Assembly (NCBI GenBank): GCA_028279985.1
Contig: JANQMR010000024.1
Span: 62,001-126,000, forward strand
Direction: 5' to 3'
DNA: 64,000 bases
Source: Woeseiaceae bacterium
GTDB taxonomy: Bacteria; Pseudomonadota; Gammaproteobacteria; Steroidobacterales; Woeseiaceae
The notes under the pieces were generated by a model. That model saw nothing but the letters and a program-made list of their open reading frames with translations. It had not been told where the DNA came from and made no database searches. Of this stretch, positions 5,448-23,207 are shown one piece after another; the stretch's first letter is position 1, and each line of letters opens with the position of its first letter. A program made the position numbers and the translations under genes.

Positions 5448-7016
5448 TCACTCGCCGCTATGGTCCACCCGCCACGGACCTTCCCGCTGCAAAATCGCCT
5501 GAATGAGTTCCCGGTTTCTCTCGCGACTGCGTTGTTCTATCCGGATCGCGACGTCCGGCGGTTCGAAGATACGGCCCAGGTCGTTGGTTTCCACTTCCCA
5601 GGCCGACAGCGCGGCCCGGAGTTCTACCAGTTTCTCACGGTACGCGGGATCGTTCGCAAGATTATGCACCTGCTGCGGGTCGGCGGCGCTGTCGTAGAGT
5701 TCCTCGACCGGCCGGGTCGGTGCCATGAACAGCGACGGCACGGGCCCGAGCTCACCCGCGCGATGCAGGCGGAACATCAAGCGTAACACCGGGTAGCGCG
5801 TTTCCTTGTAGATATTCTGCTGGGCATACGGCCGATCGGGATAGTAGTTGCGTATGTAGCGGAACCGTTTGTCGCGGACCGTCCTGATCCGATCGACCGT
5901 TTCGTCTGCCCGATCGCGCGATCCGAACGCATAGCGCCGCGTCACCCTATTCTTGCCGAAAAACGGCCGCCCCTGCATGAGCGGAGGCGGATCGATACCC
6001 GCCATGCTCAGCGTCGTCGCCGTCAGGTCGATGGCCGTTACCAGACGCCCGGAGACCTCGCCGCACCGGTACCCTGCCGGCGGCGGTAAGGCTTTGGGCC
6101 AAGACACGACCAGCGGGATGTGCAACCCGGAATCGTAAAGCCATTGTTTGCCTCGAACCATCGCCCGGCCGTGGTCGGCAAACACGACGACGACCGTATT
6201 GTCTGCAAGCCCCTGCTCTTCGAGGCGCCGCAGCACGTAGCCGACTTTGACATCGAAGGCCATGACCGCGTTGAGGTACTGCGCCCAGTCGCGCCGCACG
6301 GTGGGGTGATCGGGATAATACGACGGCAGATCAACCTTGCCCGGGTCCGCGGGCGCGTCGATCCGTTCGTGTGCCGTGTCCCATGCCGGCCCGCGATGCG
6401 CCTCCTTGAACTGCACGTGCGCAAAAAAGGGTTGATTGTCGTTGAGATCGTTGAAATCGCGGCTGTCGTAAGGCCTGCCGTCGTAACGGAAGTTCCAGTC
6501 GCGTTTGGCCGAACCGACGATGGCGTCGCCGTCCGTTCCGGCGTCCGGCGGCGCGAGCGTGACGGCCAGAGCCGTAAAATAGCCGGCATCCCGGAAGTAA
6601 TCCGTCAACAGCCTGACGCCGTCCGGCAACGGCTGTTTGCGGTCGGCGGGCGTGCGATGATGGTGCGCGCCGATGCTGGTCGAATACATGCCCGTGTAGA
6701 AGGCGGACCGGCTGATCGAACAAATCGGCGACGTCGTGTATGCATGCGTGAACCGCATGCCGTTTGCCGCGAGCGCATCGAGCGTGGGCGTGCGCGATTC
6801 CGGTTCGCCGTAGACACCCCAGTCGGGCCCCATGTCCTCGGCAACGATCCAAAGAATGTTGGGTCGCGCAAGCTCTGCGGTGTCCCCCGGCGCTGCCGCA
6901 GCGGCACGTTCGCCACCAAGACCGAACGAGCTACCGAGAAAGCCGGTGAACAGCAGTAAGGCAAAGCGTTTGCGCCGCTTCAGTCGTTGCGCGCCCGCCG
7001 CTCCCTCGTCCCCCAT
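5448..7016 (-). CDS. Sulfatase (S1 family) with unusual CSISR maturation motif, exported
   Basis: A 522-residue sulfatase, last gene of the leftward galactan operon. The chosen ATG at 7016 sits 20 bases after the previous stop and precedes a basic n-region and hydrophobic stretch (RFALLLFTGFLGSSFG), a likely signal peptide. The catalytic Cys that becomes formylglycine is C99 in SPICSISRSAFYTG. The motif is C-S-I-S-R, with Ile where Cys-X-Pro-X-Arg is usual; related sulfatases carrying a GAHHHR stretch may have Ala there. Metal-binding residues appear as AEDMGP (60-61) rather than a DD pair. Near the C-terminus lie FADHGR and ELYDSAADPQQVHNL, typical of the family. It is expected to remove sulfate from a polysaccharide fragment in the periplasm. 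Confidence 0.9.
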   Translation of the reverse strand: MGDEGAAGAQRLKRRKRFALLLFTGFLGSSFGLGGERAAAAAPGDTAELARPNILWIVAEDMGPDWGVYGEPESRTPTLDALAANGMRFTHAYTTSPICSISRSAFYTGMYSTSIGAHHHRTPADRKQPLPDGVRLLTDYFRDAGYFTALAVTLAPPDAGTDGDAIVGSAKRDWNFRYDGRPYDSRDFNDLNDNQPFFAHVQFKEAHRGPAWDTAHERIDAPADPGKVDLPSYYPDHPTVRRDWAQYLNAVMAFDVKVGYVLRRLEEQGLADNTVVVVFADHGRAMVRGKQWLYDSGLHIPLVVSWPKALPPPAGYRCGEVSGRLVTAIDLTATTLSMAGIDPPPLMQGRPFFGKNRVTRRYAFGSRDRADETVDRIRTVRDKRFRYIRNYYPDRPYAQQNIYKETRYPVLRLMFRLHRAGELGPVPSLFMAPTRPVEELYDSAADPQQVHNLANDPAYREKLVELRAALSAWEVETNDLGRIFEPPDVAIRIEQRSRERNRELIQAILQREGPWRVDHSGE

Positions 7017-7036
7017 GCACTTTCGCAAACGGTCCG

Positions 7037-8488
7037 TCACGGACGTCGCGTCATGGGCTCGAGCGGAAACTCCGGATGTTCGGTTCTCGCCCCCCGCAAC
7101 GCGTCCATCAGGCGCGCCGTCACGTCGGGGTGCTTTGTCGCCAGGTTGACCGATTCGCCAGGGTCGGTGCCAAGGTCGTAGAGCTCGGGTTCCGCGTCCA
7201 GGAACTTGACGAGCTTCCAAGGCCCGCTGCGCAGCGCCTGAATCGGGCCCCGGCGTTCGTTGAATTCCCAGTAGAGAAACGCGTGACGCGCCTGGCCGTC
7301 CTCATCGCCCAGCGCGGCCGGCAGGTAGGAAATGCCGTCGTTCGGCGGACAGTCGGTCACCGCCGCAAGCTCGCAGGCGGTCGCCATGAAGTCCCAGAAG
7401 GCTGAAACGTGCGCGGTCTCGGCGCCCGCCGGGACCGAACCCGGCCACCAGGCGATCGTCGGCATGCGGATGCCGCCCTCGTACAGGTCACGCTTGCCGC
7501 CGCGGAACGGGCCGTTGCTGTCGAAAAAGCCCCGGTCGTATTCGTGGCCGTTGTCGCTGCTGAAAATCACCAGCGTGTCGTCGGCGATGCCCCGCTCACG
7601 CAGGCGATCGAGGATACGCCCGACGTCCCGGTCCAACCGCGACACCATCGCAGCGTAGGACACGTTGCCTTCCGCATCGTGCTTGTAGTGCCCGTCGGTC
7701 TTCATCGCTCGCTCCGGCCAGCCGAGGTCCCGGTACGGCGCCCGCGAGTCCTCGGGCGCGGCCGCCGGAAAATGCGGCAGCGCCGAGGCGAAGTAGAGAA
7801 AAAAGGGCCGCTTGCCGGCATTGCGGTCGATGAAAGCCAGCGCCTCGTCGGCCAGCAGGTCCTGAATATAGCGCCTGTCGTCCTTGCCGTGATCCTTGCC
7901 GTGCTCGACGTAGGACCCGGTTTCCGTGCCAGTCGTGTCTTCTGCGAGCAACTCGACCGCATCGTTGCGGTAGAGAACCGTCTGGTCGCGATAGTGATAA
8001 TGCGCGTCGACGTGGCGCCGGTAGCCGAAAAACTCGTCGAAGCCCTGGCGGCTAGGCATCGCGGCCAAAGACTCGCCGCGGCGCTCCGCGAGCCCCCACT
8101 TGCCGACGATCGCGGTCCGGTAGCCGGCGTCCCGCAGCACCTCGGCGACCGTCGTGTCGGCTTCCGTCAGGTCCACCGGCAGGCCGCCCTTGGTCCAGCG
8201 CGGATTGCCGCGGATCGGCGAGTGGCCTGTGTGCAGGCCCGTCATCAGGCTAGCACGCGACGGGCCGCAGACGGGCGAGCCGGCGTAGTGGTCGGTGAAC
8301 CGTATGCCCTCGCGCGCCATCTGATCGAGGCGCGGCGTGCGGATCTTGGTCTGCCCGAAGGCGCCGACGTCGCCGTAGCCGAGGTCGTCGGCGAGGATGA
8401 AAACGATATTGGGACGCTCGTCCGCGGCAGCGGCGAACGCGACTAGCAGCGACGAGACCAACAGCAGCAAACCGGCGGCAGTTTTCAC
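7037..8488 (-). CDS. Sulfatase (S1 family, arylsulfatase A-like), periplasmic
   Basis: A 483-residue protein with a clear signal peptide (MKTAAGLLLLVSSLLVAFAAA). The first metal site is LADDLGYGDVG (34-44), and the maturation motif is C74 in SPVCGPSRASLMTG, the canonical Cys-X-Pro-X-Arg converted to formylglycine by a sulfatase-maturating enzyme not present here. VGKWGL, FSSDNGHEY and ELYDLGTDPGESVNLA complete the family signature. The start is a GTG that overlaps the TGA of the preceding glycosidase gene (GTGA), indicating translational coupling. It should hydrolyse sulfate esters on oligosaccharides released by the neighbouring glycosidases; position specificity is unknown. Confidence 0.94.
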   Translation of the reverse strand: MKTAAGLLLLVSSLLVAFAAAADERPNIVFILADDLGYGDVGAFGQTKIRTPRLDQMAREGIRFTDHYAGSPVCGPSRASLMTGLHTGHSPIRGNPRWTKGGLPVDLTEADTTVAEVLRDAGYRTAIVGKWGLAERRGESLAAMPSRQGFDEFFGYRRHVDAHYHYRDQTVLYRNDAVELLAEDTTGTETGSYVEHGKDHGKDDRRYIQDLLADEALAFIDRNAGKRPFFLYFASALPHFPAAAPEDSRAPYRDLGWPERAMKTDGHYKHDAEGNVSYAAMVSRLDRDVGRILDRLRERGIADDTLVIFSSDNGHEYDRGFFDSNGPFRGGKRDLYEGGIRMPTIAWWPGSVPAGAETAHVSAFWDFMATACELAAVTDCPPNDGISYLPAALGDEDGQARHAFLYWEFNERRGPIQALRSGPWKLVKFLDAEPELYDLGTDPGESVNLATKHPDVTARLMDALRGARTEHPEFPLEPMTRRP

Positions 8489-9942
8489 AGCCTGCCCTCG
8501 ATGCGAAAGTCGGCGCGGGTGAAGGACATCTCCGGTGCGACGAGCTCGGCCGAGTCGCCGTCGCCGCGGAGCTCGATCGACCGGTAGGCGCCGAAGCCGT
8601 CGTCCGTTTCGACCAGTGCCGTGGCCGCGAGGCGTTCTTCGAGCCGGGAACCGTCGAAGCGGACACGGACCGCGCGATCGCCGTCCGACTTGTTCAACAC
8701 GAAGACCAGCACCGTATCCCCCTGCTTCACGGCGTATCCGTAGCTGCTGTCGTCCAGCGTGAAGCTTCTCAAGAACTCCCCGCCCTGCGCCGCCGCGATC
8801 AGGGCCATGCCCAGGTGGAAGGGATTCTTGCGATAGCCGTGGCGAGTGCTGAGCAAGCCACCGCCGTCGCGGTGATCCGACGCGCCCGGCAGCACCGTGC
8901 TCCAGAACGCCGTGCGGTCCCAGTTGCCGATCAACAGCTCCGAGAGGAAATCCGTGAGCAAAAGCCCGCGGCTGTAGCGGTCGAAACCGCGCAGGTTTTC
9001 CTCCTTGCCCAAGCCATATTCGTTGTTGGCGATCAGCAGGCCCGGGCGGCCGGCCTGCCGCGCGATCTCGCGATAGAAGTCCGCCGCCTCCCGCCAGACC
9101 CGCCCGCCGGCCTTACGGTCGAAGTTCTTGCGGTCGCGCAGCGGATGTTCGCTGCGCCATTCGTCGAAAGTGCCGGGCTCCAGGCCCGGCGGATCGCCGC
9201 CGTAGGGCCATTTGCCGTGGGTCTCGAAACCGTCCGCCGTGCCGCGGTCGTGCGCGAGGAAGCGCCGGATGCGTTCCGGATCGCCGGGGTTGTCGTTCCA
9301 GAACACGCGGATCTCAGGGTCTTCGCGCTTCATCGCAACGGCGTGTTCGGCGAACACGGCCGCGAAGGCCTCGATACCGCCGTGACGGTGGATGTCCTCG
9401 TTGCCGATGTACCAGTCCGCGCCGCCCGAACCCTGCGCCTTGACGTAGCGCACCATCGCGGCGGCGCGCTCGATGCTGTCGCCGCGGCGGTCGAAGCGTT
9501 CTCCCGACAGCGAGTTGACGCCGAACACCGGCGCGATACCGCTGGCCTTCACGAACGCCAGGTACTCGTCGAGGCTCATCCATTCGTCCGGCGGCGCGTC
9601 GCTCGCCGGCGACCAGTCGGGATCCCAGTTGTCGCCGACCAGGACGCCGGTCGGCGACCGCCAGTTCCAGTACTGGACCACCGTGCCACCCGGGTAGCGG
9701 CCGAGCGTAATCCCCGCCTCCCGGGCCCAGCGGGCGAACGCGCCGTCCGCGTAGATCTCGTCCTGCTCCGAGGAATAGACGAAATGCAGGCCGACGAGCC
9801 GGTCGCTGACGCGGAATTGCGGCGCCGCGGTGTCGATCGTGACCACGTCGCCGTTCGCCGCCGCGCCGGATGTGCTCGCCGTGACAGCCATGACTAAGGC
9901 CGCTGCGCACACCGTTGCAAGGCCGGGCAGCGCCTTGACCAT
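8485..9942 (-). CDS. Putative clan GH-A glycoside hydrolase, exported (paralogue of next upstream gene)
   Basis: 485 residues with a signal peptide (MVKALPGLATVCAAALVMAV). I cannot place it in a named GH family. The barrel-type features are RYPGGTVVQYWNWRSPTG (82-99), reminiscent of GH39/GH51/GH79 N-terminal strands; E182 in WYIGNED as candidate acid/base; and E308 in IANNEYGLG as candidate nucleophile. The spacing of about 126 residues fits a retaining (beta/alpha)8 enzyme. A short beta-domain follows. It closely resembles the first 520 residues of the adjacent 804-residue protein but lacks that protein's C-terminal modules. Alternative upstream starts exist (ATG 9975, GTG 10020); 9942 was chosen for the signal peptide. 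Likely role: cleaving the sulfated galactan. Confidence 0.75.
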   Translation of the reverse strand: MVKALPGLATVCAAALVMAVTASTSGAAANGDVVTIDTAAPQFRVSDRLVGLHFVYSSEQDEIYADGAFARWAREAGITLGRYPGGTVVQYWNWRSPTGVLVGDNWDPDWSPASDAPPDEWMSLDEYLAFVKASGIAPVFGVNSLSGERFDRRGDSIERAAAMVRYVKAQGSGGADWYIGNEDIHRHGGIEAFAAVFAEHAVAMKREDPEIRVFWNDNPGDPERIRRFLAHDRGTADGFETHGKWPYGGDPPGLEPGTFDEWRSEHPLRDRKNFDRKAGGRVWREAADFYREIARQAGRPGLLIANNEYGLGKEENLRGFDRYSRGLLLTDFLSELLIGNWDRTAFWSTVLPGASDHRDGGGLLSTRHGYRKNPFHLGMALIAAAQGGEFLRSFTLDDSSYGYAVKQGDTVLVFVLNKSDGDRAVRVRFDGSRLEERLAATALVETDDGFGAYRSIELRGDGDSAELVAPEMSFTRADFRIEGRL

Positions 9943-10024
9943 CGCGCCGGGGCGAAACCGGTCGACTACGTGCATACGCACGAGGGCCCGCGGCCCCGAC
10001 TGTCGCACAGAACGAAACACGCGA

Positions 10025-12439
10025 CTATTCGATGAAGATCGCGTCCAACCAGACGCCCGCCTGGTCGCCGCCGGAGAAGCGGATCTTCTCTAGCGTCGTC
10101 GCACCGCCGCTGTACGGCAGCGTGCCCGATACCCAGGCGCCGTTGTTGAACTCGACGACGTAGCCGCCGGCGGCGAGCTTCAAGACAATACGCCGGAGCG
10201 GTGCCGGGGCGAAGGTATCGTTCATGAACTGCAGATCGCCGTCGGCGCTCTCGGGTATGGCCGTCGTGCCGTTCACCGGATCGACGTAATACAGTCGCCT
10301 GTCCTCACCGGCCGTCGAGCTGGCGCCGAGCACCAGCTCGAAGGACTTGTTGCCGGCGGCGTCCAGCCCGGCGACCGTGATGTCCTTGCTGCGGTCGGCC
10401 GCGGTGCGGCGCAGCGCCGCCCTGAAGTCGACCTGCACGCCGTCGAGCGCGGCAGCGGCGCGGAAGATGCCGTCAATGGCGAAACCGCCGGCGACGCGAT
10501 CGATCAGCAGGGCGTTGTTGCCGGGCCTGCCCGCCACGTCGACGCCCGCTGCCGGTACGTTGTCCCAATTGCCGACCGCGGTGCCCGCGTCCAGGTTCGC
10601 GGCGTTGGTGTCGCTTTGCTTGGCGGCGTCGTTGAACGTCGCCGTGAACAGCTCGGAGGTCACCGGCACGGCGGTGAGCTCCGAGCCAAAGGACTCCCGG
10701 TCCCACTTGTCGACGGCGACGACCCGGTAGATGTAGCTCGCGCCGTTGACGAGGCCGGTATCGATAAACGATCCCTCGCTCAGGTTGCTGGCGATCAGGT
10801 CCAGCGGGGCATTCGGATTGTTGCCGCGATAAACCCGGTACTCCGAGAAAAACGGCGCGGTCGAGGCGCTCCAGCTCAAGGACACCTGGGCGTCGCCGGC
10901 AATCGACGTCAGATCGGCGACCGGCCCCGGCGGCTTCGGCCACGGGATAGGCGTGCGCGGAAACACGATTCGGGTATACGACAAGGGCGGCAATTCGCCC
11001 GTGAACATCCGCGCCAGCTTGTCGTACTCAATGGCCGTATCGACGTACTCGCCGAAATCGTCCTCGGTATCGACCATCGAGATCGCCTCGATCGTAGACC
11101 TACGGCACCATTTGCGGAAAAAGCGCGGCAGGCGGTCGCAAAAGCCCGCCGGTAAGGCCACGAGGGGATTCAAACGGACGCCGTCGATGCCTATCCGCAC
11201 CGGCTGCGCAGCCGTCGACTTGTTGATCAGGTATACCTGCAACTCGCCCGTGGTTTTCGCCGAGAAGCCGTGGACCTGCAGGAAGTCCGTCTGCGAGCGC
11301 ACCATCGTCGCACCCTGCGCCCGGCCGAGCAGGCCCAAGCCGAGATGCACCGGGTTCTTGCGGAAATTGTTGCTCGGGCTCACCAAGGCGCCTTCGTCGG
11401 AATTCAAGACGTTGCTCCAGAAGGCCGTCGAATACCAGTTGCCGAGGAAATGTTCCTGCAGCATGTCGGTCAGCAGCAAGCCCTTGGTGTAGCGATCGAA
11501 GCCGATCAGGTTTTTCGCGCGTCCCAGGCCGTATTCGTTGTTCGCGATCAAGAGACCCGGCCGGCCGGCGGCGATTGCCGCGTTGCGATAGGTGTTCGCG
11601 GCAAAGCGCCAGGCGCGGTTGGCGTTCTTCCGGTCCCGCACCGGCACCTCGACCAGCCACTCCTCGAAGGTGCCCGGCGGCCGGTTGGGATCGCCGCCGA
11701 AGGGCCATTTGCCGTGCGTCTCCAGGCCGTCGGCGGTGCCGCCGTCGTTCGCCAGGAAGGTCCTGATGTTGTTGGCGTTGGCGCCGTTGACGTTCCAGAA
11801 AACCAGGATGGTCGGGTCGGCCTGTTTCATCGCCTCGGCGTGCGCCCGGAAGGCCCTGGCGTACTTCGCGATGCCGCCGCCGTGCAGGTTCTCCTCCTCG
11901 TTGCCGATGTACCAGATCGCGCCGCCGTAGCCGCGGTCCCTGACGTACTCGACCATGCGCACCGCCCGATCGACGCTGTCCTGCTGCCGGTTGTACTTGT
12001 GCCCCGACAGCGAGTTGACGCCGAACATCGGCCGGATGCCGCTCTGATCCACGAAGGTCAGGTATTCGTCCAGGCTCATCCACTCCGACGGCGGCGCGTT
12101 GTCGGTCGTGTTCCAGTTCGGGTTCCAGGGATCGCCGGTGCCTACGCCGGTCGGGTTCTCCCAGTCCCAGAACTTGACGATGGTCCCACCCGGATAACGT
12201 CCCGTACCGATACCGGCCTCCCTGGCCCAGGCGGCAAGCTCACCGTCTTCGTAGATCACGTCCTTTTCGTTGCTGTAGACGAAGTGAACACCCACCATCG
12301 TATCGCTGATGACCCACCTTTCATCGTCGGCCGAAACGGTGACCTCGACGGCCGCCGCCTGGTGCGCAATCAGACCGAACACGACAGACATTAGTGCCGC
12401 CACGGTCACACCGAGTTGTCTTGTGCAGATATCGTTCAT
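10025..12439 (-). CDS. Putative clan GH-A glycoside hydrolase with FN3 and C-terminal beta-sandwich module
   Basis: 804 residues, signal peptide ending near IAHQAAA (about 30). The catalytic region (about 40-520) shares long blocks with the neighbouring 485-residue protein: HFVYSNEKDVIYEDG, RYPGGTIVKFWDWENPTG, E181 in WYIGNEE and E302 in IANNEYGLG. A fibronectin type III domain follows at about 527-617 (GDAQVSLSWSAS...SYIYRVVAVDKWDRES), then a region of about 185 residues rich in beta strands that may bind carbohydrate. The ATG is preceded by GGGGGTGACGAG, a strong ribosome-binding site. Catalysis by the two Glu residues is inferred from motif shape; the family is unassigned. Confidence 0.75.
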   Translation of the reverse strand: MNDICTRQLGVTVAALMSVVFGLIAHQAAAVEVTVSADDERWVISDTMVGVHFVYSNEKDVIYEDGELAAWAREAGIGTGRYPGGTIVKFWDWENPTGVGTGDPWNPNWNTTDNAPPSEWMSLDEYLTFVDQSGIRPMFGVNSLSGHKYNRQQDSVDRAVRMVEYVRDRGYGGAIWYIGNEEENLHGGGIAKYARAFRAHAEAMKQADPTILVFWNVNGANANNIRTFLANDGGTADGLETHGKWPFGGDPNRPPGTFEEWLVEVPVRDRKNANRAWRFAANTYRNAAIAAGRPGLLIANNEYGLGRAKNLIGFDRYTKGLLLTDMLQEHFLGNWYSTAFWSNVLNSDEGALVSPSNNFRKNPVHLGLGLLGRAQGATMVRSQTDFLQVHGFSAKTTGELQVYLINKSTAAQPVRIGIDGVRLNPLVALPAGFCDRLPRFFRKWCRRSTIEAISMVDTEDDFGEYVDTAIEYDKLARMFTGELPPLSYTRIVFPRTPIPWPKPPGPVADLTSIAGDAQVSLSWSASTAPFFSEYRVYRGNNPNAPLDLIASNLSEGSFIDTGLVNGASYIYRVVAVDKWDRESFGSELTAVPVTSELFTATFNDAAKQSDTNAANLDAGTAVGNWDNVPAAGVDVAGRPGNNALLIDRVAGGFAIDGIFRAAAALDGVQVDFRAALRRTAADRSKDITVAGLDAAGNKSFELVLGASSTAGEDRRLYYVDPVNGTTAIPESADGDLQFMNDTFAPAPLRRIVLKLAAGGYVVEFNNGAWVSGTLPYSGGATTLEKIRFSGGDQAGVWLDAIFIE

Positions 12440-12473: not shown

Positions 12474-14027
12474 TTACTTTCTTTCGCGCTCCGTTCTGTC
12501 CTCGATCGACTCGAGCATTGCCTGAAGCTCCGCAACAACGCCGGGACGTTCGGCGGCGAGGTTGTTCTGCTCGCCGATATCGACCGACAGGTCGTAGAGC
12601 TGGGGCTCCTTGCTCAGACCGTGCTCGATGTTCTTGGTGTGGAACCACCTCGGCAGGTTGGCGTCGGCGGCCAGCGGCTCGATGTATTTGAGATTGCCCC
12701 TGCGAATCGAAAAGGTTCGCATCGATTCCTTGAACAGCACATGACGTCCCGTGTCACTGCTTCCAAGCAGCGCATCGAGAACGTTGCGACTGTCGATGGC
12801 TTCGGCGGTATCGAGCTCCACGCCGATCAGTGCGGCCAGCGAGGCATAAAAATCGACCTGGGAGACGACGGCATCGCTGTCGCCGGGCGGCACGGTGCCC
12901 GGCCAGTAGACGATCGTCGGCACGCGCGCACCGGCCTCGAAGGCGCTGTACTTGCCGCCGCGGAACGGGCCGCTCGGATTGTGTTCGCCGACGAGTTCGA
13001 CCGCCCGATCGTCGTAGCCGTCGTCCAGCACCGGGCCGTTGTCGCTGGTGAAGATCAACAAGGTATCGTCGGCGATACCCAGCGCCTCGAGCTCCCTGAC
13101 GATCTCACCCGTCATCCAGTCCGTCTGCACGATGGCGTCGCCGCGCGGTCCCATCCGGCTTTTGCCCTGAAAGCGCGGGTGCGGCAACCGCGGCACATGA
13201 ATGTCGTGGAAGGAGTGGAACAGGAAAAACGGCCCTTCCTTGTTGTCCCTGATGAAGGCAAGCGCCTTCTCCGTGAACACGTCGGGAAACTCCTCGTCGA
13301 TCCACAACGCGCTTTCGCCGCCGGCCATGTAGCCGATGCGCGAAACGCCGTTGACGATCGTCGCGCTATGCTGCGGGTTGGCCGTCACGCGCAAAAGCTC
13401 GGGGTTCTCGGTGCCGGTGGGCCGGTCCCCCACCTTCCTGCCGTAGCTGACCGTGATCGGATCGGCCGGGTCGAGACCGACGACGCTGTGATTCTCGACG
13501 TAGACGGTCGGCACACGATCGCCGGTAGCCGGTAAAAGGAACGCGTAGTCGAAGCCGATCTCCAGCGGTCCGGGTTCGATGGTTCCGTTCCAGTCGACGT
13601 CGCCGTCGCCCAGGCCGAGATGCCATTTGCCGACAACCGCTGTCGCGTAGCCTGCCTCCCGTAACATCGCGGGTAGCGTCGGCTGCCCGGGCCGGATCAA
13701 CAGCGACGCATCGCCCGCCAGTACCCGTGCCCGGCTGCGGAAACCGTACTCGCCGGTCAGCAAGGCATAACGCGACGGGGTGCAGGTAGCCGCTGCGGCG
13801 TGCGCATCGGTAAAACGAATGCCGTTGTCGGCCAGGAAATCGATGCTGGGGGTCTCCACACCGACCGCGCCGTAGCTGCCGACGTCGGCATAACCCAGGT
13901 CGTCAACGTAAATGACAATGATGTTCGGCAAGCGCGGCTGGTCCGCGGGCGGAGCCGTCGGCTCGTCCGGGTCGGTGCCACATCCCGCCAGAAGTGCAAA
14001 AAGCACCAAAAAGCCAAGTCGTATCAT
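12474..14027 (-). CDS. Sulfatase (S1 family), lipoprotein
   Basis: A 517-residue sulfatase anchored by a lipoprotein signal: MIRLGFLVLFALLAGC, lipobox LAGC, with C16 as the acylated residue. The metal-binding DD is in YVDDLGYADVG, and the formylglycine precursor is C82 in TCTPSRYALLTG. VGKWHLGLGDG, SFHDIHVPRLPHPRF, TSDNGPVLDDG and QLYDLSVDIGEQNNLA are family signatures. The ATG overlaps the TGA of the giant upstream gene (ATGA), so the two are translationally coupled. Attachment to the outer membrane would place it beside the TonB-dependent receptor. Regiospecificity is unknown. Confidence 0.94.
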   Translation of the reverse strand: MIRLGFLVLFALLAGCGTDPDEPTAPPADQPRLPNIIVIYVDDLGYADVGSYGAVGVETPSIDFLADNGIRFTDAHAAAATCTPSRYALLTGEYGFRSRARVLAGDASLLIRPGQPTLPAMLREAGYATAVVGKWHLGLGDGDVDWNGTIEPGPLEIGFDYAFLLPATGDRVPTVYVENHSVVGLDPADPITVSYGRKVGDRPTGTENPELLRVTANPQHSATIVNGVSRIGYMAGGESALWIDEEFPDVFTEKALAFIRDNKEGPFFLFHSFHDIHVPRLPHPRFQGKSRMGPRGDAIVQTDWMTGEIVRELEALGIADDTLLIFTSDNGPVLDDGYDDRAVELVGEHNPSGPFRGGKYSAFEAGARVPTIVYWPGTVPPGDSDAVVSQVDFYASLAALIGVELDTAEAIDSRNVLDALLGSSDTGRHVLFKESMRTFSIRRGNLKYIEPLAADANLPRWFHTKNIEHGLSKEPQLYDLSVDIGEQNNLAAERPGVVAELQAMLESIEDRTERERK

Positions 14028-17000
14028 CGCGGTCGATTCCTTTGCTGTTTTTCCGTCAGCGGCAGCCAGGTCCTGAGTGGCGGGAAGACGGGCTCGAGCA
14101 TCTGCTCGTCCCATCGCCGGTGTTCGGCGCGGAGCGCGGCCAAGCGTTCGCCATTGGCTCCGGCCAGGTTTCGCGTCTCGGCAGGATCCCGGCCGAGGTC
14201 GAATAGCAGGCGCTCGTCCGGTGTCCAGATCGCCTTCCAGATCGCCTTGTTGTCGCCGCGCAGGATGGCGGCCTCGCCGGCATCGAAGCGGCGCCAGTAG
14301 AGCGCCTCGTGCGGCGGACCCGATTTTCGGCCGGTTAAAAAGGGAACCAGATCCACGCCGTCCAGCGGATGCTCGATCGAGATCGCGGCACCGGTCCGCG
14401 CCGCAACCGTCGCCATGATGTCCAGCGATATGACGGGCTGCGAATACTCCCGTCCCGCCTCGATCACCGCCGGCCAGCGCAGCGCAAACGGTACCCGCAG
14501 GCCGCCTTCGAACAGCGTGCGCTTGCGACCGCGCAGCGGTGTGTTGCGCGAGGCAAAACCGGTGCCGCCGTTGTCCGACAGGAAAACCACGAGGGTGTCA
14601 TCGGCGATTCCCTCGTCGTCGAGCGCGTCGAGCACGCGGCCGACGCCGTCGTCGACGGCACTGACCATCGCCGCATAAGCCCGGCGCTTTTCGTCCGCGA
14701 CGTGTGCAAAACGCTGGAGATACTTTTCGGTCGCCTGTAACGGCGAATGCGGTGCGTTGTAGGACAGATACAGAAAAAACGGCCCGCCGCTCCGGCGGCG
14801 GATGAAATCGACGGCCTTGTCGGACAGCTCGTCGGTCAGATAACCGTCGATATCCACTGCGCGCCCGTTGTGGCGCAGCCGCGTGCGATACCAGTCGAGG
14901 TGCATCTCGGCGTCGGAGAGATTGTCGAGCGTCAGCTCTTCCGGAAAATAACGGTGTCCCCCGGTCAGGAAACCGAAAAACTCGTCGAAGCCGCGCTGCC
15001 TCGGACGCAGGTCCGGATGCGTGCCGAGATGCCATTTACCGACTGCCATCGTCGCGTAGCCCGCGGATTTGAGCGCTTCCGCGATCGTCGTCTCCGACAA
15101 CGGCAAGCCGCCGAGGGGATCGGCCGGGTCGTTGTTCGGGTTGCGGTCGAAACCGAAGCGGCTCTGATACCGGCCCGTCATCAGGCCTGCCCGGCTCGGC
15201 GCGCAAATGGAGTGGCTGACGTACCCGCGGGTAAATGTCACGCCCTCGGTCGCAACGCGGTCGATGTTGGGCGTCGGGATTTCCGTGCCGCCGGTGAAAC
15301 CGACGTCCGCGTAGCCAAGATCGTCGGTGACAATTAAGACAACGTTTGGATCGATGTCCGTATAAGCTTGGTCGTCGGTAGCGATCGGGACAACGTTTGG
15401 GCTGTCACTGCGACGGGCCGAAGGCAGGTTCGCCGGCTCGGTATACGCGTCGATGTCCACAGTCCGCGTCGGCAGACCGTCGCTGCCGACGGCGACCCGA
15501 ATCGAACCCGGTGCGCCGGTGGACTGCACCAGCGCCAGCGCCTTGCCGCGGAAGGCGCGGCGCGAATCGGCCTTGGTCGAGTCCAGATCGAGGATGTCGC
15601 CGTTCTCGACGCCGATCAGGCGACCCGGACCGCGGACGTCGAAATGCAGGCGGTTGCCGGCTTGCGGCACCAGCGTCCCCTTCGCATCGACGACATCGAC
15701 TTCGATGCGGGCCACGGCGCGGCCGTCCGCCGGCATCCCGCCGCGGTCGGACACGACGCGCAGCGCCGCGGGTTCAGCGGCCGTCCGGCGAATCGCCGTG
15801 CGCGAGACACCGTTTTTACCGCGCGCGACGACGCGCAGCTCGCCGGGCGTGTACGGCACCGTCCAGACGATCTGCATCGCGTCGGTCATCGGCTTTTCGC
15901 CGAGCGAATCGCCGTTCAGGAACAGCTCGGCACGGTCCAGGTTCGTGTAGACGACCACCGGGATGCCGACGCCCTCCTTGCCCGGGTGGGTCCAGTGGGG
16001 GTCCAGGTGCACCATCGGCAGCTCCGACCACTGGCTGCGGTACAGGTGATAGGGGCCCTTGGGAAAACCCGCGAGATCGATGATCCCGAAGTTCATGGTC
16101 CGCGCCGGCCAGCCGCGGGACTCGCCCAGGTAGTCGAACGCCGTCCAGCGGAAGGTGCCGATCAGGTAAGGCAGCTCCCGCGCCAGCCGGATCTCTTCGC
16201 GGATCGGCATGCGCACCAGGTTGTTGTCGAACGAGGACGCGTACTCCAGCGGCTCTTCCGGCCACACTTCCGTCGCCGACAAGTCCGGCACCGGGTACAC
16301 GCGCGACTTGATGCGTTCCCAGATTTCCGCGGCGGTCCTGTTCGGGTTGTTGAGCTCCCAGGGCGCCGGGTTGTCGCGCGTGCGGTATTCGGTTTTCGAA
16401 CGGTAGACGCCGCGCGTGTGCAAGGAGTGGGTGATTTCCGTGCCGACGACGACCCGTTCGGGGTTCTCGGCGTGGAACTTCTCGATCGCGCCGACGAACT
16501 CGCCGTGGCCGTTGAAGCCCGCGATGTCCGCGTGCGGATAACTGTAGCCGCGCCCCTGCGTGATCGGCCGCGTCGTATCCAGCGAGCGGATGTGATCGAC
16601 GAGCTTTTTCTGCGTCTCCGCCGTCGCGTCGCGCACCTCGTTGCCGACGCTCCAGAGAATCACGCTCGGGTGATTGCGGTCGCGCCGGATGAAGGCGTCG
16701 AGGTCCTTTTGCCACCAGTCCTCGAAGTACAGGCCGTAATCGTACGGCGCCTTCGGCGTCTCCCAGCCGTCGAAGGCCTCGTTCATGACCAGGAAACCCA
16801 TCTCGTCGGCGAGGCGGTAGAACTCCGGCGCAAACGGATTGTGCGCCGTGCGCAGGGCGTTCGCACCCATGTCCTTGAGCAGTTCCAGGCGATGCCGCCA
16901 GACGTCCTCGGGCACCGCCGCGCCGACCGGCCCGCCGTCGTGGTGCAGGCAGACGCCCTCGAGCTCCAGCGGCTCGCCGTTGAGCAGGAAACCGCGGTCG

Positions 17001-19405
17001 ACCGTGAACTCGATGGACCGCAGCCCGGTCACGGTCTCGTAGCGGTCGAGCGGCCCGCGCGAATCCGACAGCGTGAACACCGCGGTGTAGAGGCTCGGCG
17101 CATCCGGCGACCAGAGCCGGGGCGCCGTCACGTCGAGCTGCTGGTCGACCGACGTGGTGTCGCCCGCGGCAAGGGTGACCCGCGATTCGCCGCGCGCGAC
17201 TTCGACGCCGTCGGCATCGAGCAGGCGCAGGGTCGCGGTCGCGTCGATCGGCGCGTCTTGCGAATTGACGACCTCGTGCGTGGCGAGGACCGTGGCCCGT
17301 TCGCGGCCGACGTCCGCACCGCGCACGAAAGCGCCGTGCTCGCGGACGTGCACGGGGCCGGTGACCGTCAACCAGACGTCGCGGTAGATGCCCGAGCCGG
17401 TGTACCAGCGGCCGCTGGGCAGCTTGCTGTTGTCGACGCGCACGGCGATCGTGTTCTCGCCTTCACGCAACAGGTCCGTCAGGTCCAGCGAGAACCCGAT
17501 GTAGCCGTAAGGCTGGTAGGCGCGCTCCTCGCCGTTGACGTAAACGCGAGCGTTCATGTAAACGCCGTCGAACGTCAGGCGAACCGCCTTGTCTTCCCAA
17601 CCCGGGTCGTAGTCGATCTGCTTCCGGTACCAGCCGACGCCGCCGGGCAGGAACGCGCCGGGCGCGCCGGCCGGATGGTCCTCGGCATAGTCGCCTTCGA
17701 TGCTCCAGTCGTGCGGCAGGTCGAGCAGCCGCCAGCCGCCGTCGTCGAAACCGGGTTCCGCGGCGCCTTCGATATCGCCCAGCGCAAACGACCAGTCGTC
17801 GGTGAACAGCCGGCGTTGCCGTTCGGAGTTCGTTTCGTTCGCGGCCGCGGCAGCGAGCGGCGGGGTCGCATCGGGATCGAAATTGAAACCGGCGTAGGGC
17901 GAACGGGTCCTGGCGTCGTTCAGGATCGTCCGCATCTCGGCAACGACGGCCGGATGCTCGGCGGCGACGTTGCGGGTTTCGGCGGGGTCGCTCGCGAGGT
18001 CGTAGAGCTCGATGGGCGCGTCGGGGTCGTAGCCTTGCGGCTGCGGGCGCAGCACTTTCCAGTCGCCGCGGCGCACGGCCTGCGCGGGATGCGGCTGGCG
18101 GCCGTGAAACTCCCAGTACAGATAAGCATGTGCCGGCTGTTCGCCGCGCCCCGTCAACAGCGGCGCAAAGGAGATGCCGTCGACGCCCTCGGGCGTCTCG
18201 GCCCCGGCCAGCTCGGCCAGCGTCGGCAACACGTCCCACTGCGCCGAGACGTGGTCGCTCGAGCGCCCGGCCTCGATCACCGAGGGCCAGTACGCGATCA
18301 TCGGCACGCGTATGCCGCCTTCGTGGAGGTCGCGCTTGACGCCGCGCAGGCCGCCCGACGAATCGAAAAAGTCGACGTCCTGGCCGCCCTCGGGCGCGGG
18401 CCCGTTGTCGCTGGTGAAGACGACCAGCGTGTTCTCGGCGAGCCCCAGGCGCTCCAGGCGCTGCAGGATCTTGCCCACGTCCGCGTCGAGTCGCGAAATC
18501 ATCGCCGCGCGGGCCGCGCGCGGTTTCGGGTGCGGCGTGTAATCGCCGTCGTCCAGCGGCGTTTCCGTCCAGCGGCCCTCGTAGGCCTCGAGCTCGGCGT
18601 CCGGGACCTGCAGCGCCGAATGCGGGATCGTCGCTGCGTAGTAGAGGAAAAACGGCTCGTCTTTCGCGCGCTCGATGTAGTCCAGCGCTGCCTCGATCAA
18701 GCGGTCCGGCGCATAGTCCTCGCCGATGTATTGCCGGTAGTCCTCCGCACGGTCCGAGGTACCGGCCATATCCGCGTGCGGAATGAAAAAACGGTTATTG
18801 AGCGCGACGCGCTCGTCGTTACGCCACAGGTGCGTCGGATAGTAGTTGTGCGCCTGCTTCTGGTCGAGGTAACCGAAGAAATAGTCGAAACCGTGTTTGT
18901 TCGGCACGCCCGCGCTGCCGGGCCCGCCGAGTCCCCATTTGCCGACCAGGCCGGTCCGGTAGCCGGCGCCGCGCAACACTTCGGGCAGCGTCTCGTAGGC
19001 GAAATCGATGGACATCTGTCCACGTTCTTCCTCGTCGCGGAAGCCGCCCAGCTCGTAGTTACCGCGGATCTGCACCCGCCCCGTGTGCTGGCCGGTCATC
19101 AGTGCGGCGCGCGACGGCGCGCACACGGTGCTACCGGCGTAGTGCTGCGTGAACAGCAGCCCCTCCGCCGCCAGGCGGTCCAGGTTGGGCGTGTCGATGT
19201 GCGCCTGGCCGTAGGCACCGAGGTCGCCGTAACCCAGGTCGTCGGCCAGGATATAGACGACGTTGGGCCTGGGCGGTGCTGCCGGAGCGGCGTCGCCGGA
19301 GCCGGCGGCCCGCAGCCCGGCAGAACCGCCGGTCTCGCCGCAGGCGCTAAGCAGCAGCGCAAACGCTAAACCGGGTACTACACGAGCGCGGCGCGAAAAA
19401 GTCAT
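14024..19405 (-). CDS. Trifunctional lipoprotein: sulfatase - GH2 glycosidase - sulfatase fusion
   Basis: A single 1793-residue reading frame carries three enzymes. The lipoprotein signal MTFSRRARVVPGLAFALLLS ends at the acylated C22 (LLSAC). Sulfatase 1 spans about 45-500: DD55-56, C95 in TVCAPSRAALMTG and TSDNG near 331-335. A GH2 beta-galactosidase-type region spans about 530-1320: jelly-roll start, DVWLTVTGPV, acid/base E923 in SVGNEVRD, nucleophile E990 in VVVGTEITHS, then a DUF4982-like part (RAELFLNGDSLG) and further beta domains. Sulfatase 2 spans about 1353-1793: DD1361-1362 and C1401 in SICAPSRAGLMTG. Both sulfatases keep complete motifs, so all three sites look active. The junction has a 17-residue duplication of the sulfatase start. 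It lies 10 bases after the receptor gene stop. It would remove two sulfates and cleave a galactosyl bond on one surface-tethered chain. Confidence 0.9.
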   Translation of the reverse strand: MTFSRRARVVPGLAFALLLSACGETGGSAGLRAAGSGDAAPAAPPRPNVVYILADDLGYGDLGAYGQAHIDTPNLDRLAAEGLLFTQHYAGSTVCAPSRAALMTGQHTGRVQIRGNYELGGFRDEEERGQMSIDFAYETLPEVLRGAGYRTGLVGKWGLGGPGSAGVPNKHGFDYFFGYLDQKQAHNYYPTHLWRNDERVALNNRFFIPHADMAGTSDRAEDYRQYIGEDYAPDRLIEAALDYIERAKDEPFFLYYAATIPHSALQVPDAELEAYEGRWTETPLDDGDYTPHPKPRAARAAMISRLDADVGKILQRLERLGLAENTLVVFTSDNGPAPEGGQDVDFFDSSGGLRGVKRDLHEGGIRVPMIAYWPSVIEAGRSSDHVSAQWDVLPTLAELAGAETPEGVDGISFAPLLTGRGEQPAHAYLYWEFHGRQPHPAQAVRRGDWKVLRPQPQGYDPDAPIELYDLASDPAETRNVAAEHPAVVAEMRTILNDARTRSPYAGFNFDPDATPPLAAAAANETNSERQRRLFTDDWSFALGDIEGAAEPGFDDGGWRLLDLPHDWSIEGDYAEDHPAGAPGAFLPGGVGWYRKQIDYDPGWEDKAVRLTFDGVYMNARVYVNGEERAYQPYGYIGFSLDLTDLLREGENTIAVRVDNSKLPSGRWYTGSGIYRDVWLTVTGPVHVREHGAFVRGADVGRERATVLATHEVVNSQDAPIDATATLRLLDADGVEVARGESRVTLAAGDTTSVDQQLDVTAPRLWSPDAPSLYTAVFTLSDSRGPLDRYETVTGLRSIEFTVDRGFLLNGEPLELEGVCLHHDGGPVGAAVPEDVWRHRLELLKDMGANALRTAHNPFAPEFYRLADEMGFLVMNEAFDGWETPKAPYDYGLYFEDWWQKDLDAFIRRDRNHPSVILWSVGNEVRDATAETQKKLVDHIRSLDTTRPITQGRGYSYPHADIAGFNGHGEFVGAIEKFHAENPERVVVGTEITHSLHTRGVYRSKTEYRTRDNPAPWELNNPNRTAAEIWERIKSRVYPVPDLSATEVWPEEPLEYASSFDNNLVRMPIREEIRLARELPYLIGTFRWTAFDYLGESRGWPARTMNFGIIDLAGFPKGPYHLYRSQWSELPMVHLDPHWTHPGKEGVGIPVVVYTNLDRAELFLNGDSLGEKPMTDAMQIVWTVPYTPGELRVVARGKNGVSRTAIRRTAAEPAALRVVSDRGGMPADGRAVARIEVDVVDAKGTLVPQAGNRLHFDVRGPGRLIGVENGDILDLDSTKADSRRAFRGKALALVQSTGAPGSIRVAVGSDGLPTRTVDIDAYTEPANLPSARRSDSPNVVPIATDDQAYTDIDPNVVLIVTDDLGYADVGFTGGTEIPTPNIDRVATEGVTFTRGYVSHSICAPSRAGLMTGRYQSRFGFDRNPNNDPADPLGGLPLSETTIAEALKSAGYATMAVGKWHLGTHPDLRPRQRGFDEFFGFLTGGHRYFPEELTLDNLSDAEMHLDWYRTRLRHNGRAVDIDGYLTDELSDKAVDFIRRRSGGPFFLYLSYNAPHSPLQATEKYLQRFAHVADEKRRAYAAMVSAVDDGVGRVLDALDDEGIADDTLVVFLSDNGGTGFASRNTPLRGRKRTLFEGGLRVPFALRWPAVIEAGREYSQPVISLDIMATVAARTGAAISIEHPLDGVDLVPFLTGRKSGPPHEALYWRRFDAGEAAILRGDNKAIWKAIWTPDERLLFDLGRDPAETRNLAGANGERLAALRAEHRRWDEQMLEPVFPPLRTWLPLTEKQQRNRPR
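15299..15400 (-). repeat. 51-bp in-frame tandem duplication at the GH2/sulfatase junction
   Basis: Residues 1336-1352 (PNVVPIATDDQAYTDID) and 1353-1369 (PNVVLIVTDDLGYADVG) are adjacent copies of the sulfatase N-terminal metal-site strand. At DNA level about 36 of 51 positions agree between 15350-15400 and 15299-15349. The second copy is the functional one; the first has diverged and may act as linker. It marks the point where a separate sulfatase gene was probably joined to the GH2 gene. Confidence 0.85.
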
Positions 19406-19415
19406 CGCCGCGCGC

Positions 19416-22127
19416 TTACAAACGGAAGCGCACGCCGGCAAACCACTTACGCCCGCTGTGCTCGGTGAAGTTGACGAGATTGTCGTAAGGCGCAAGGGCA
19501 TTCGGCGACGTCGGTACGTGGCGGACGACGGTCGGATCGTCCGTGAGGTTCAAGCCCTGGAACACCAGCGTTATCGCGTCGGTGAGCTTGTAGGAGACGT
19601 TGAGATCGAGAATGTCGCTGCCGTCGTCCAGGCGGTTGCCGCCGATCGGGCGAAAAAACTCGTCGCGGTTCCGGTACGCGATACGCCCCGAGAACGCGCC
19701 GTCGTCGTAAAACAATGCCGCATTGAAGACGTTGTCGGAAACGCCGGCGAGCCCGACCGTGTACTGCGCGTTCGGGTTGAAGACGAACTCGATGTCGTTT
19801 TCGATCAACGTGAAGTTGACGGCCGCGCCGACGTGTCTCAGCGGACCGGGCAGGAAGCTGAAGGTCTGCTGGTACTGGACTTCGACGCCCTGGATGTTCT
19901 CGTTCGCTTCTTCGTTGACCGGACGGCTCACGGTGAAGTCGACGCCGTCGTAGGTTTCGATCGCGTCTTCCGACGAATTCGGGAAAATGACCGTGTCGAG
20001 ATCCTTGAAAAAGGCGGCCACGGAAAACAGCCCGTCTTCGGCGAAGTAGTACTCCAGCGACAGGTCGAACTGGTTCGCCTCGAACGGCTCGAGGAACGGA
20101 TTGCCGCCGGAGCCCGTGGGCTGGCCGATATTTTGGTTAAAGCCCAGCGTCCGCGTGGCGCCGAGCGTGTCGATCGGCGCACGCGCGATCGTCTGCGCGG
20201 CGCCGAAGCGCAACAGTAAATCGGGCGTCAGCTCGAAGTTCAGGTTCAGGTTCGGCAGCACGTTGCTGAAATCGTTCTCTAGCCTGACGGGCTCGGGGTC
20301 GCCGAAAATCACGTCGGTCACTTCACCGGTCCCCGGGTCGATGATCACTTCGACGACGTCGGCGGCAAAGCCCCGCGAGCTCACGTCGGTTTGCACGACA
20401 CGAACGCCGATGTCGCCGAAGAACGGCAGACCGGACAGCTCGCCGCCAAACTCGAGCATCAGGTAGCCGGCCAGCCGGTCCTCCTCGACGTCGTAGCTCG
20501 AGGCCAGGTCGCTGACGCTTTCGCGGTCGAACGGGAACGGCCCGCCGACTTCGGCGAACACGCCGATGGGATCGAAAACGGGCCAGGCCTGCGGAAACGC
20601 GCCGTCGGCGCCGCCCAGAAAATCGTCGTAGGGGAAATCGACGCCGTAGGCGGCGACCGGCCGCGGGTCGTTGTTGACGTTGAAGGCCCGCACGTCGTTG
20701 TCGAACAGGCTCTCCTTGCTCCGGCTGACGTAACGCAGGCCCGCGCCGAACGCGGTGAAAAACGCGCCGTCGAGGCTGCGCTCGACGTCGACGCGCCCGG
20801 CGTAGAGCTCGTCCGTCACGTCCTGCTGCTGGAGCTGCAGCCGCTGCAGCCGAAAATCGTCGTTCGTGCCCAGGGCGTCGGCGGATACGAGCTCGTAGAC
20901 GCCGTCGTCCACCATCCGGAAAGCCGCGTTGACGCGGGGAGGAACGCGCTGGCTGCGCGGCTGGTAGAGGACCCGGTCGCGCGTCGTTCGCGAATAGCTG
21001 CCGTCGGCGTTGACGCTCCAGTCGCCGAGGCCCCAGTCGAGGTTGACGCCGAAAGCCGAGGACACGTCTTCCTGCGTGAGATGCTGCATCTGCACGCGGA
21101 CCGGCCCGATGTTCGAATAATCCGCCGCCGTCATGACGTTGTTCGAATCGACGGCCGACGTGCCCGTGTCGAAGCCGGCGTTGCCGGCGCGCGCGTTGTT
21201 GAACTGCAGGAACGAACGGCGATCAATGCCTTCGCGATCCGTATGCAGGCCGTCGACCGTCAGGCGCAGCGCCGGCGAGATGTCGTATTGCAGTGTTGCA
21301 TAGGCGCCGATTCGATCGTCGGTGCCGTGCGTGTAGCGGTACTGGATGTTGCCCGGCGCAAAGTCGTTGGTGCCGTCCGCGTCGAAGTCTCGGTTATCCA
21401 CGAAGGCGCCGTTGATCTGCCGGTTGGTGGGCGTGTCCGAATCGCGAAACGCGATACCCGCCGCGAAGCCCAGCCGTCCGTCGAGGTGCTTGCCGATGTA
21501 CGCCCCGCTGCCGCGCAGGCCGAAACCGTCGCTGCCGCTGCGATCGGCATCAAGCTCCGAGAAATTGCCGAGCACCTGCCCGGTGAAGACGCGATCGGCG
21601 TCCGTCTCCAGCGGCTTGATCGTCTGCAGGTTGATCGTTCCGGAGATGCCGCCCTCGATCAGGCTCGCCTGCGGCGTCTTGTACACCTCGGCGCCCCGCA
21701 TCAGCTCGGACGGGAACTGATCGAAGCGGACGTCGCGGTCGGGCGCGGCGGTGGATATCTCGCGGCCGTTTAAGATCGTCAGGCCGAAATTCGGCCCGAG
21801 ACCGCGGATGGAAATCTGCGAGCTGTTGCCGCGATCCCGGTCGGCGGCGAGGCCGGGGAGCCGCTCCAGCGACTCGGCAATCGACAAGGACGGCAATGCG
21901 CCGATGTCTTCCTGGGCGAGCACGTCGCGAATGTCCTCGGCAGCCCGCTTGTTCTCGCGTGCGTCGAACAGGCTGCGGCGGTAGCCCGTCACGTGAATCT
22001 CGTCGATGACATCCTGGTCCGCGCCGGTGCGATCCGGCTCCGTTCCCGGTTCCTGCGCCACCACCCGATTCGAGATCACGCCGGCAACGCCGATCAGCAG
22101 CAAGGCTGCATAACGACTGGTCGTCAT
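19416..22127 (-). CDS. TonB-dependent outer-membrane receptor, carbohydrate type
   Basis: A 903-residue receptor with signal peptide MTTSRYAALLLIGVAGVI up to VVAQ. The plug domain follows (IHVTGYRRSL, ALPSLSIAESLERLPGL, QISIRGLGPNFGLTILNGRE), with a long beta-barrel ending FAGVRFRL. The plug signature matches the large proteobacterial receptors that import oligosaccharides with energy from TonB-ExbBD. As first gene of the operon with sulfatases and glycosidases, it is the likely entry port for sulfated galactan fragments; there is no SusD-like partner, as usual outside Bacteroidota. The ATG at 22127 follows GGGGGT. Transcription probably starts near the AT-rich motif at 22242-22262. Confidence 0.94.
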   Translation of the reverse strand: MTTSRYAALLLIGVAGVISNRVVAQEPGTEPDRTGADQDVIDEIHVTGYRRSLFDARENKRAAEDIRDVLAQEDIGALPSLSIAESLERLPGLAADRDRGNSSQISIRGLGPNFGLTILNGREISTAAPDRDVRFDQFPSELMRGAEVYKTPQASLIEGGISGTINLQTIKPLETDADRVFTGQVLGNFSELDADRSGSDGFGLRGSGAYIGKHLDGRLGFAAGIAFRDSDTPTNRQINGAFVDNRDFDADGTNDFAPGNIQYRYTHGTDDRIGAYATLQYDISPALRLTVDGLHTDREGIDRRSFLQFNNARAGNAGFDTGTSAVDSNNVMTAADYSNIGPVRVQMQHLTQEDVSSAFGVNLDWGLGDWSVNADGSYSRTTRDRVLYQPRSQRVPPRVNAAFRMVDDGVYELVSADALGTNDDFRLQRLQLQQQDVTDELYAGRVDVERSLDGAFFTAFGAGLRYVSRSKESLFDNDVRAFNVNNDPRPVAAYGVDFPYDDFLGGADGAFPQAWPVFDPIGVFAEVGGPFPFDRESVSDLASSYDVEEDRLAGYLMLEFGGELSGLPFFGDIGVRVVQTDVSSRGFAADVVEVIIDPGTGEVTDVIFGDPEPVRLENDFSNVLPNLNLNFELTPDLLLRFGAAQTIARAPIDTLGATRTLGFNQNIGQPTGSGGNPFLEPFEANQFDLSLEYYFAEDGLFSVAAFFKDLDTVIFPNSSEDAIETYDGVDFTVSRPVNEEANENIQGVEVQYQQTFSFLPGPLRHVGAAVNFTLIENDIEFVFNPNAQYTVGLAGVSDNVFNAALFYDDGAFSGRIAYRNRDEFFRPIGGNRLDDGSDILDLNVSYKLTDAITLVFQGLNLTDDPTVVRHVPTSPNALAPYDNLVNFTEHSGRKWFAGVRFRL

Positions 22128-22241
22128 TGGATTTACCCCCCGTTTTTTCAAAGCTCCCGGCAGCCATTTTTTTCGATGGCGCCCCGCACAGACAGTCCAT
22201 CGCCGTGGTTCGATTGCCGGCTCGACCGATACTCTATTCAA

Positions 22242-23082: not shown

Positions 23083-23204
23083 GTCGCCTCCATCGGCAGG
23101 CTCTCGCCAGCCGGTGCGTCGCCGCATACGATCGTCCCGCCAATCGCTTCCACCCACTCGCGGCTCGGGTATCGGGACCCGCCTCTATGGCTCATGTCAC
23201 AACT
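22979..23204 (-). repeat. 113-bp tandem duplication covering the 5' end of the GntR gene
   Basis: Bases 22979-23091 and 23092-23204 are adjacent direct copies, alike at most positions over the first 105 or so bases. The unit includes the start codon region and the first 37 or so codons of the regulator gene. Because 113 is not a multiple of three, the upstream copy ends in TGA exactly at the ATG of the intact gene. Confidence 0.85.
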
Positions 23205-23207
23205 CAT
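23079..23207 (-). pseudogene. Truncated duplicate of the GntR N-terminus (42 codons)
   Basis: The frame reads MSCDMSHRGGSRYPSREWVE and continues to GESLPMEAT. It matches the first 37 or so residues of the downstream regulator (MSYKGGSRYLTRELVEAIGG) and stops before the recognition helix. Its ATG overlaps the TGA of the SMP-30 gene, and its TGA overlaps the ATG of the regulator, so the ribosome path through the operon stays coupled. Several substitutions are conservative (S/T, R/K), so it may still be translated; a useful product is doubtful. I treat it as a gene remnant. Confidence 0.7.

Follow-up and report, generated by a model that had tools for sequence, protein, structure and literature searches.

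Here we describe two adjacent genes in a 64,000-nucleotide stretch of the genome of a Woeseiaceae bacterium (assembly GCA_028279985.1, contig JANQMR010000024.1, positions 62,001 to 126,000 of the forward strand), referred to below as the window, to which all coordinates apply. The initial annotation took the open reading frames at 8485-12439 to be a tandem pair of glycosidases with a common catalytic region, and this holds up well. The two products, P0001 and P0002, are paralogues (49% identity over 495 aligned residues, E 1e-155), and both carry the motifs RYPGGT, WYIGNE, and IANNEYGLG:

8485..10020, minus strand: core glycoside hydrolase (GH) protein 1, P0001; 511 amino acids, GTG start; signal peptide, (beta/alpha)8 barrel, and beta-sandwich, with no further domains
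10025..12439, minus strand: core GH protein 2, P0002; 804 amino acids, ATG start; signal peptide, barrel and beta-sandwich, fn3-like domain, and C-terminal domain

On balance, we lean toward reading the pair as retaining clan GH-A hydrolases of a rare new family, near GH51 and outside it, that cut a sulfated beta-D-galactan. We are highly confident that they are clan GH-A glycoside hydrolases, and it is likely that they lie outside GH51 and every other family tested here. The family, its relatives, its domain types, and its gene context were established by computation.

The gene pair and its relatives

The two genes are separated by four bases. The N-termini of both proteins read as Sec signal peptides, and both products are predicted to be secreted. 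The architectures differ, in that P0001 stops after the shared region and only P0002 has the fn3-like and C-terminal domains. In P0002 the barrel and beta-sandwich occupy residues ~31-500, the fn3-like domain ~508-590 (its top PDB match is an Fn3-like protein), and the C-terminal domain ~600-804. This last domain (about 200 residues; 10025-10642) matched no Pfam family, is also present in the Cellvibrionaceae homologue described next, and may be a carbohydrate-binding module.

Relatives are few. The genome itself encodes no homologue beyond P0001 and P0002, and none occurs in 98 genomes from its genus and order. Thus, the galactan locus in which the pair sits was probably acquired by transfer; its GC content is not unusual within the window. 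A pattern scan of ~85,000 species genomes, using an alignment of the two sequences, recovered two further core loci, although such scans miss relatives and the rarity should be read as an estimate. One (L006) is in a Cellvibrionaceae metagenome-assembled genome (MAG), and its protein is 70% identical to P0002 and shares its fn3 and C-terminal domains. The other (L007) is in the verrucomicrobium Pelagicoccus mobilis (46% identity to P0001). A pattern scan with P0001 alone as the query gave no match. Profile searches added no core member from 384 genomes of the class of Pelagicoccus or from 390 genomes of the order of the Cellvibrionaceae MAG, and viral contigs contained no relatives. A candidate match in the bacterium's own genome (C19) was rejected as chance, being antisense to an aspartyl-tRNA synthetase-like gene. 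The three motifs are kept in the relatives from other phyla, so their match between P0001 and P0002 is not chance.

Six more distant proteins, which we refer to as tier 2, are ~22-29% identical to the core over most of their length (E 1e-25 to 1e-48). Their sources include Pelagicoccus and Flammeovirga (L007:3411-5654, L018:14941-17445, L021, L022, L023, and L011), and their nucleophile motif is EWN. They are more diverse than the core, several of their genes adjoin sulfatases, and they match no Pfam family above cut-off; possibly they represent another undescribed GH-A family. Two other proteins, from Persicobacter (L019:14728-16431) and Streptomyces (L020:5791-7950), have long branches and take an intermediate position between GH51 and tier 2.

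Active site and placement among GH families

Alignment of the core, tier 2, and GH51 proteins points to the following active-site positions:

9397..9399, minus strand: P0001 Glu208, predicted acid/base (in WYIGNE); column invariant in core, tier 2, and GH51
9019..9021, minus strand: P0001 Glu334, predicted nucleophile (in IANNEYGLG); column invariant in core, tier 2, and GH51
9211..9213, minus strand: P0001 Lys270, aligned with Tyr in GH51 and tier 2 (THGKW versus HYY)
11897..11899, minus strand: P0002 Glu181, predicted acid/base, by alignment
11534..11536, minus strand: P0002 Glu302, predicted nucleophile, by alignment

The catalytic residues are thus assigned by alignment (Glu208/Glu181 with the acid/base column of GH51, Glu334/Glu302 with its nucleophile column), and we infer a retaining mechanism. 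Across distant phyla there is also no variation in the Asn that precedes the acid/base or in the Arg of RYPGG, and the nucleophile sits on a later strand than the acid/base, as in clan GH-A. In clan GH-A, the Tyr of strand 6 touches the nucleophile. The His of this strand 6 motif is invariant, and the residue two positions on is Tyr in 6/6 tier 2 and 19/19 GH51 proteins versus Lys in 4/4 core proteins; this core-specific Lys could balance a sulfate in the −1 subsite. The core proteins also do not retain the N-terminal GHFxEH motif of GH51, and have Thr/Ser after RxPGG in contrast to the usual Cys/Asn of GH51.

The initial annotation could not place the pair in GH39, GH51, GH79, or another family, and we concur: similarities to GH-A families are weak and none is above a curated cut-off. 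GH51 (alpha-L-arabinofuranosidases and some endoglucanases, clan GH-A) nevertheless appears clearly nearest by sequence and is not one among equals. P0001 has zero Pfam matches at E<=1. The matches of P0002 to GH79n (13.9 bits vs. a gathering score of 23.1), the GH2 barrel, and fn3 are all sub-threshold, as is the GH79n match of the Cellvibrionaceae homologue (20.3 bits against the same 23.1). The catalytic region matched no Pfam or NCBIfam model at cut-off: similarity to GH39, GH79, GH30, and GH44 is limited to weak profile matches that reach no Pfam gathering score, and the GH51 Pfam model does not match the core pair. The best NCBIfam match is the GH51 enzyme ArfA (8.5e-6; 24.9 bits vs. a cut-off of 625). 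A sequence search of the PDB gave nothing relevant for P0001, and linked the catalytic region of P0002 to GH51 at just 0.05.

Profiles carry the comparison further. A ten-sequence profile (four core and six tier 2 proteins) matched GH51 best in the PDB (E 2e-24), over nearly the full chain and with the catalytic motifs in register, followed by the far weaker GH30, GH44, GH79, and GH39 (E ~1e-6 to 1e-2). A profile of the four core proteins alone matched GH51 at 2.5e-6 across ~135 residues. In profile-profile comparison, the core is much closer to tier 2 (E 2.5e-59) than to GH51 (8.6e-13). We also built a GH51 hidden Markov model (HMM) from 18 proteins collected from genomes via the GH51 C-terminal Pfam domain. 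True GH51 proteins score 410-788 bits, tier 2 47-66, and the core 17-41, and the alignment to P0001 covers merely 18% of the model; it should be noted that its E-values refer to a one-sequence database and are not comparable to those of dbCAN, and that the bit scores decide. A tree that samples 19 GH51 proteins, not the whole family, and in which the program flagged long branches, places the core outside the GH51 clade, with support of 100/100 for the core, 100/100 for core plus tier 2, and 96/94 for the GH51 set on the other side of the branch.

The barrel fold proposed in the initial annotation is in keeping with structure prediction. The AlphaFold model of P0001 was poor (predicted local distance difference test, pLDDT, 57), and the fold analysis rests on the second model, that of the P0002 barrel (pLDDT 64; predicted template modelling score, pTM, 0.61). 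Foldseek placed GH51, GH44, GH79, and GH30 on top (template modelling score ~0.6, E ~1e-17). VIA-align matched the P0002 model to GH-A structures at Z 18-21 over about 320-380 residues, with GH51 (2vrq) at Z 21.2 (root-mean-square deviation 4.6, 380 residues) and GH30, GH44, and GH79, which have the same fold by both programs, practically level at Z ~20. The fold is most likely a clan GH-A barrel with a beta-sandwich. Structure by itself does not single out the family. Overall, the core resembles GH51 in its barrel and beta-sandwich, R-[WYF]-P-G-G motif, Asn-Glu acid/base, and Glu nucleophile, and GH51 is its top match by both profile and fold. Unlike GH51, it sits in a galactan-type locus.

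The surrounding operon and its likely substrate

From 29907 down to 5448, minus-strand genes follow one another with short gaps or small overlaps, an arrangement suggestive of one operon or a small number of them; scans for promoters and terminators matched no more often than in shuffled sequence. Besides the pair, the run comprises:

5448..7220, minus strand: S1 sulfatase, CSISR site; nearest solved S1_8A (galactose-2-sulfate 2-O-sulfatase), then S1_8B
7037..8488, minus strand: S1 sulfatase, CGPSR site; nearest solved S1_20 (3S-Gal; 7AN1/7ANA); 4-base overlap with the end of P0001
12474..14114, minus strand: S1 sulfatase, lipobox LAGC, CTPSR site; nearest solved S1_15A/S1_15B (galactose-6-sulfate 6-O-sulfatases)
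14024..19501, minus strand: S1 sulfatase (S1_20-like), GH2 beta-galactosidase-like, and S1 sulfatase (S1_19-like, 4S) in one open frame
19416..22241, minus strand: TonB-dependent receptor (TIGR01782, above cut-off)
22363..23157, minus strand: GntR/FCD transcriptional regulator
23204..24115, minus strand: SMP-30/gluconolactonase family lactonase
24133..25695, minus strand: sodium/solute symporter
25758..26492, minus strand: 2-dehydro-3-deoxy-6-phosphogalactonate (KDPGal) aldolase (NF006600, above cut-off)
26393..27376, minus strand: 2-keto-3-deoxygalactonokinase (DGOK; PF05035)
27416..28180, minus strand: short-chain sugar dehydrogenase, first step, presumably galactose dehydrogenase
28177..29907, minus strand: IlvD/EDD sugar-acid dehydratase, arabinonate/galactonate type

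The five sulfatase domains counted in the initial annotation are all recognized by Pfam PF00884 (5448-7220, 7037-8488, 12474-14114, and two in 14024-19501). Their subfamilies are set by the best structural-database match, not by SulfAtlas, and the functions given are those of the matched proteins: galactose 2- and 6-sulfatases for S1_8A and S1_15A/S1_15B (PMC12549532), with the S1_20 subfamily of 7AN1/7ANA from PMC10154620 and further functions from PMC6923384. The 14024-19501 frame (1825 amino acids) has an apparent lipoprotein signal (LSAC) at its start, its GH2 part matches beta-galactosidases, and its C-terminal sulfatase is nearest to solved S1_19 carrageenan 4-sulfatases. The dehydrogenase, lactonase, dehydratase, KDGal kinase, and KDPGal aldolase together form the De Ley-Doudoroff route for D-galactose.

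The association of the core GH with these partners recurs across phyla, so an accidental neighbourhood is unlikely. In Pelagicoccus, one run holds a GH2 (53% identity to that of the window), an S1_20-like sulfatase (47% to the N-terminal part of the fused protein), the core GH and, 4 bases downstream of it, an S1_8-like sulfatase (36%). In the Cellvibrionaceae locus, the core GH is accompanied by an S1_8-like sulfatase (37% to that of the window) and a TonB receptor. An S1_8-like sulfatase is therefore a few genes or less from the core GH in 3/3 core loci, and a 49% relative of the window's S1_15-like sulfatase adjoins a tier 2 gene. The GH2 and first sulfatase that are fused in 14024-19501 are separate adjacent genes in Pelagicoccus. 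The formylglycine sites of the S1_8-like sulfatases are uneven (CSISR, CSTSR, and CSPNR vs. CxPSR, in 5448-7220, L006:87-1502, and L007:11475-13028). Elsewhere in the genome, contig 25 (249-285 kb; L045-L047) carries three more sulfatases in two other sugar loci, which, from translations judged by eye, look like different sugar pathways unrelated to galactan use. Immediately past the end of the galactan locus is a fused isobutyryl-CoA mutase/GTPase, IcmF (1155-4598, over cut-off).

Because the sulfatase matches cover 2-, 3-, 4-, and 6-sulfates and are accompanied by GH2 and a D-galactose route, the polymer is probably rich in D-galactose and sulfated at several positions; its source is probably a seaweed or another marine organism with a heavily sulfated galactose polymer. 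Retaining GH-A enzymes cleave beta-D-galactosidic bonds, not alpha. GH16 is absent from the genome (controls matched), and the operon showed neither an alpha-galactosidase nor a 3,6-anhydrogalactose gene; PF23763, tried as a GH110 probe, matched no control and is uninformative on GH110. Over agar or carrageenan, the bond specificity, the lack of GH16, and the gene content of the operon favour a sulfated beta-D-galactan, which we consider the somewhat better supported substrate on the strength of gene context. Agar, porphyran, and kappa/iota-carrageenan look less likely, given the lack of GH16 and the D-galactose pathway at the locus. Thus, of the sulfated substrate suggested in the initial annotation, the sulfated-galactose context stands, whereas agar, porphyran, and these carrageenans recede.

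Another close parallel is offered by the lambda-carrageenan locus of Pseudoalteromonas distincta and the GH167 enzymes, which are beta-carrageenan-active exo-enzymes, GH42-like and with four domains (PMC6923384). There too, hydrolases accompany S1 sulfatases and GH2 on sulfated galactans, and the S1_8 and S1_15 sulfatases match those of the window. However, the lambda-carrageenan pathway employs GH150 and GH110, neither of which was seen in the window operon, and the window has extra S1_20-like and S1_19-like domains.

Competing explanations and implications

Given that GH51 is nearest by profile and fold, the pair could be divergent GH51-type alpha-L-arabinofuranosidases or alpha-L-arabinanases that debranch or cut a sulfated arabinogalactan, in which case they would be a new subfamily within GH51 and not a family of their own. 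The sugar-acid dehydratase fits this to a degree (827 bits on L-arabinonate dehydratase, cut-off 882), and enzymes of this type can serve in both arabinose and galactose pathways. We nevertheless regard this as unlikely, because the core proteins score >360 bits below any sampled true GH51 and form a separate clade, have lost the GH51 Tyr (to Lys) and the GHFxEH motif, and share their locus with a kinase and aldolase of hexose (KDPGal) type, as well as an S1_15-like sulfatase that works at C6, a carbon arabinose lacks. It is quite improbable, too, that the pair belongs to a CAZy family for marine galactans, either an existing one that lacks both a Pfam model and a closely related solved structure or one yet to be published. 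CAZy regularly gains families, and GH86 agarases occur (Z 12.6) among the structural matches of the weaker P0001 model alone. Yet the ten-sequence profile, which does reach GH51, GH30, GH44, GH79, and GH39, matches no PDB entry recognizable as GH86, GH50, GH150, or GH167; GH167 enzymes are GH42-like proteins of about 775-808 amino acids (PMC6923384); and the papers found on families around GH188-GH194 concern other enzymes. Literature searches turned up no paper describing the core family or any GH-A enzyme that acts on sulfated galactans. Least probable by far is a non-catalytic or strongly altered pair that binds sulfated galactan: every core member has Lys for Tyr beside the nucleophile, but both catalytic Glu residues, the preceding Asn, and the RYPGG Arg persist across distant phyla, and no other candidate endo-acting hydrolase was seen in the operon.

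Several points weigh against a new GH-A family acting on sulfated beta-D-galactan. The core set comprises only four known sequences, and no biochemical data were found for any of them. The GH51 signal comes mostly from tier 2, the core by itself giving the short match at 2.5e-6 noted above, and the core sequences may already be in CAZy, perhaps filed under GH51 as remote members. With Lys in place of Tyr next to the catalytic centre, the chemistry could be altered. Model quality is moderate (pLDDT 57 and 64), with the loops round the active site least certain.

If the pair does act on a sulfated beta-D-galactan as we favour, the longer, multidomain P0002 would probably act first, on the polymer, either extracellularly or at the cell surface, cutting beta-D-galactosidic bonds with Glu181 as acid/base and Glu302 as nucleophile. 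The TonB receptor would import the oligosaccharides, on which the shorter P0001 (Glu208 and Glu334) would probably act next, in the periplasm. The sulfatases would strip galactose of its 2-, 3-, 4-, and 6-sulfates, the GH2 domain would free galactose, and the De Ley-Doudoroff enzymes would oxidize it. A bolder and distinctly more doubtful version is that the four core proteins constitute a new GH-A CAZy family in which the Lys that replaces Tyr holds a sulfate at the −1 subsite, allowing direct cleavage at sulfated galactose of a little-studied marine beta-galactan, and that tier 2 is a second new sulfatase-linked family.

Few enzymes are available for highly sulfated galactans beyond the agars and carrageenans. 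A new family whose operon identifies the sulfates it meets would yield tools for cleaving and sequencing these polymers, and the Lys change offers a testable idea of how a hydrolase tolerates or requires sulfate at the cleavage site. It would also account for how some marine bacteria consume highly sulfated galactans.

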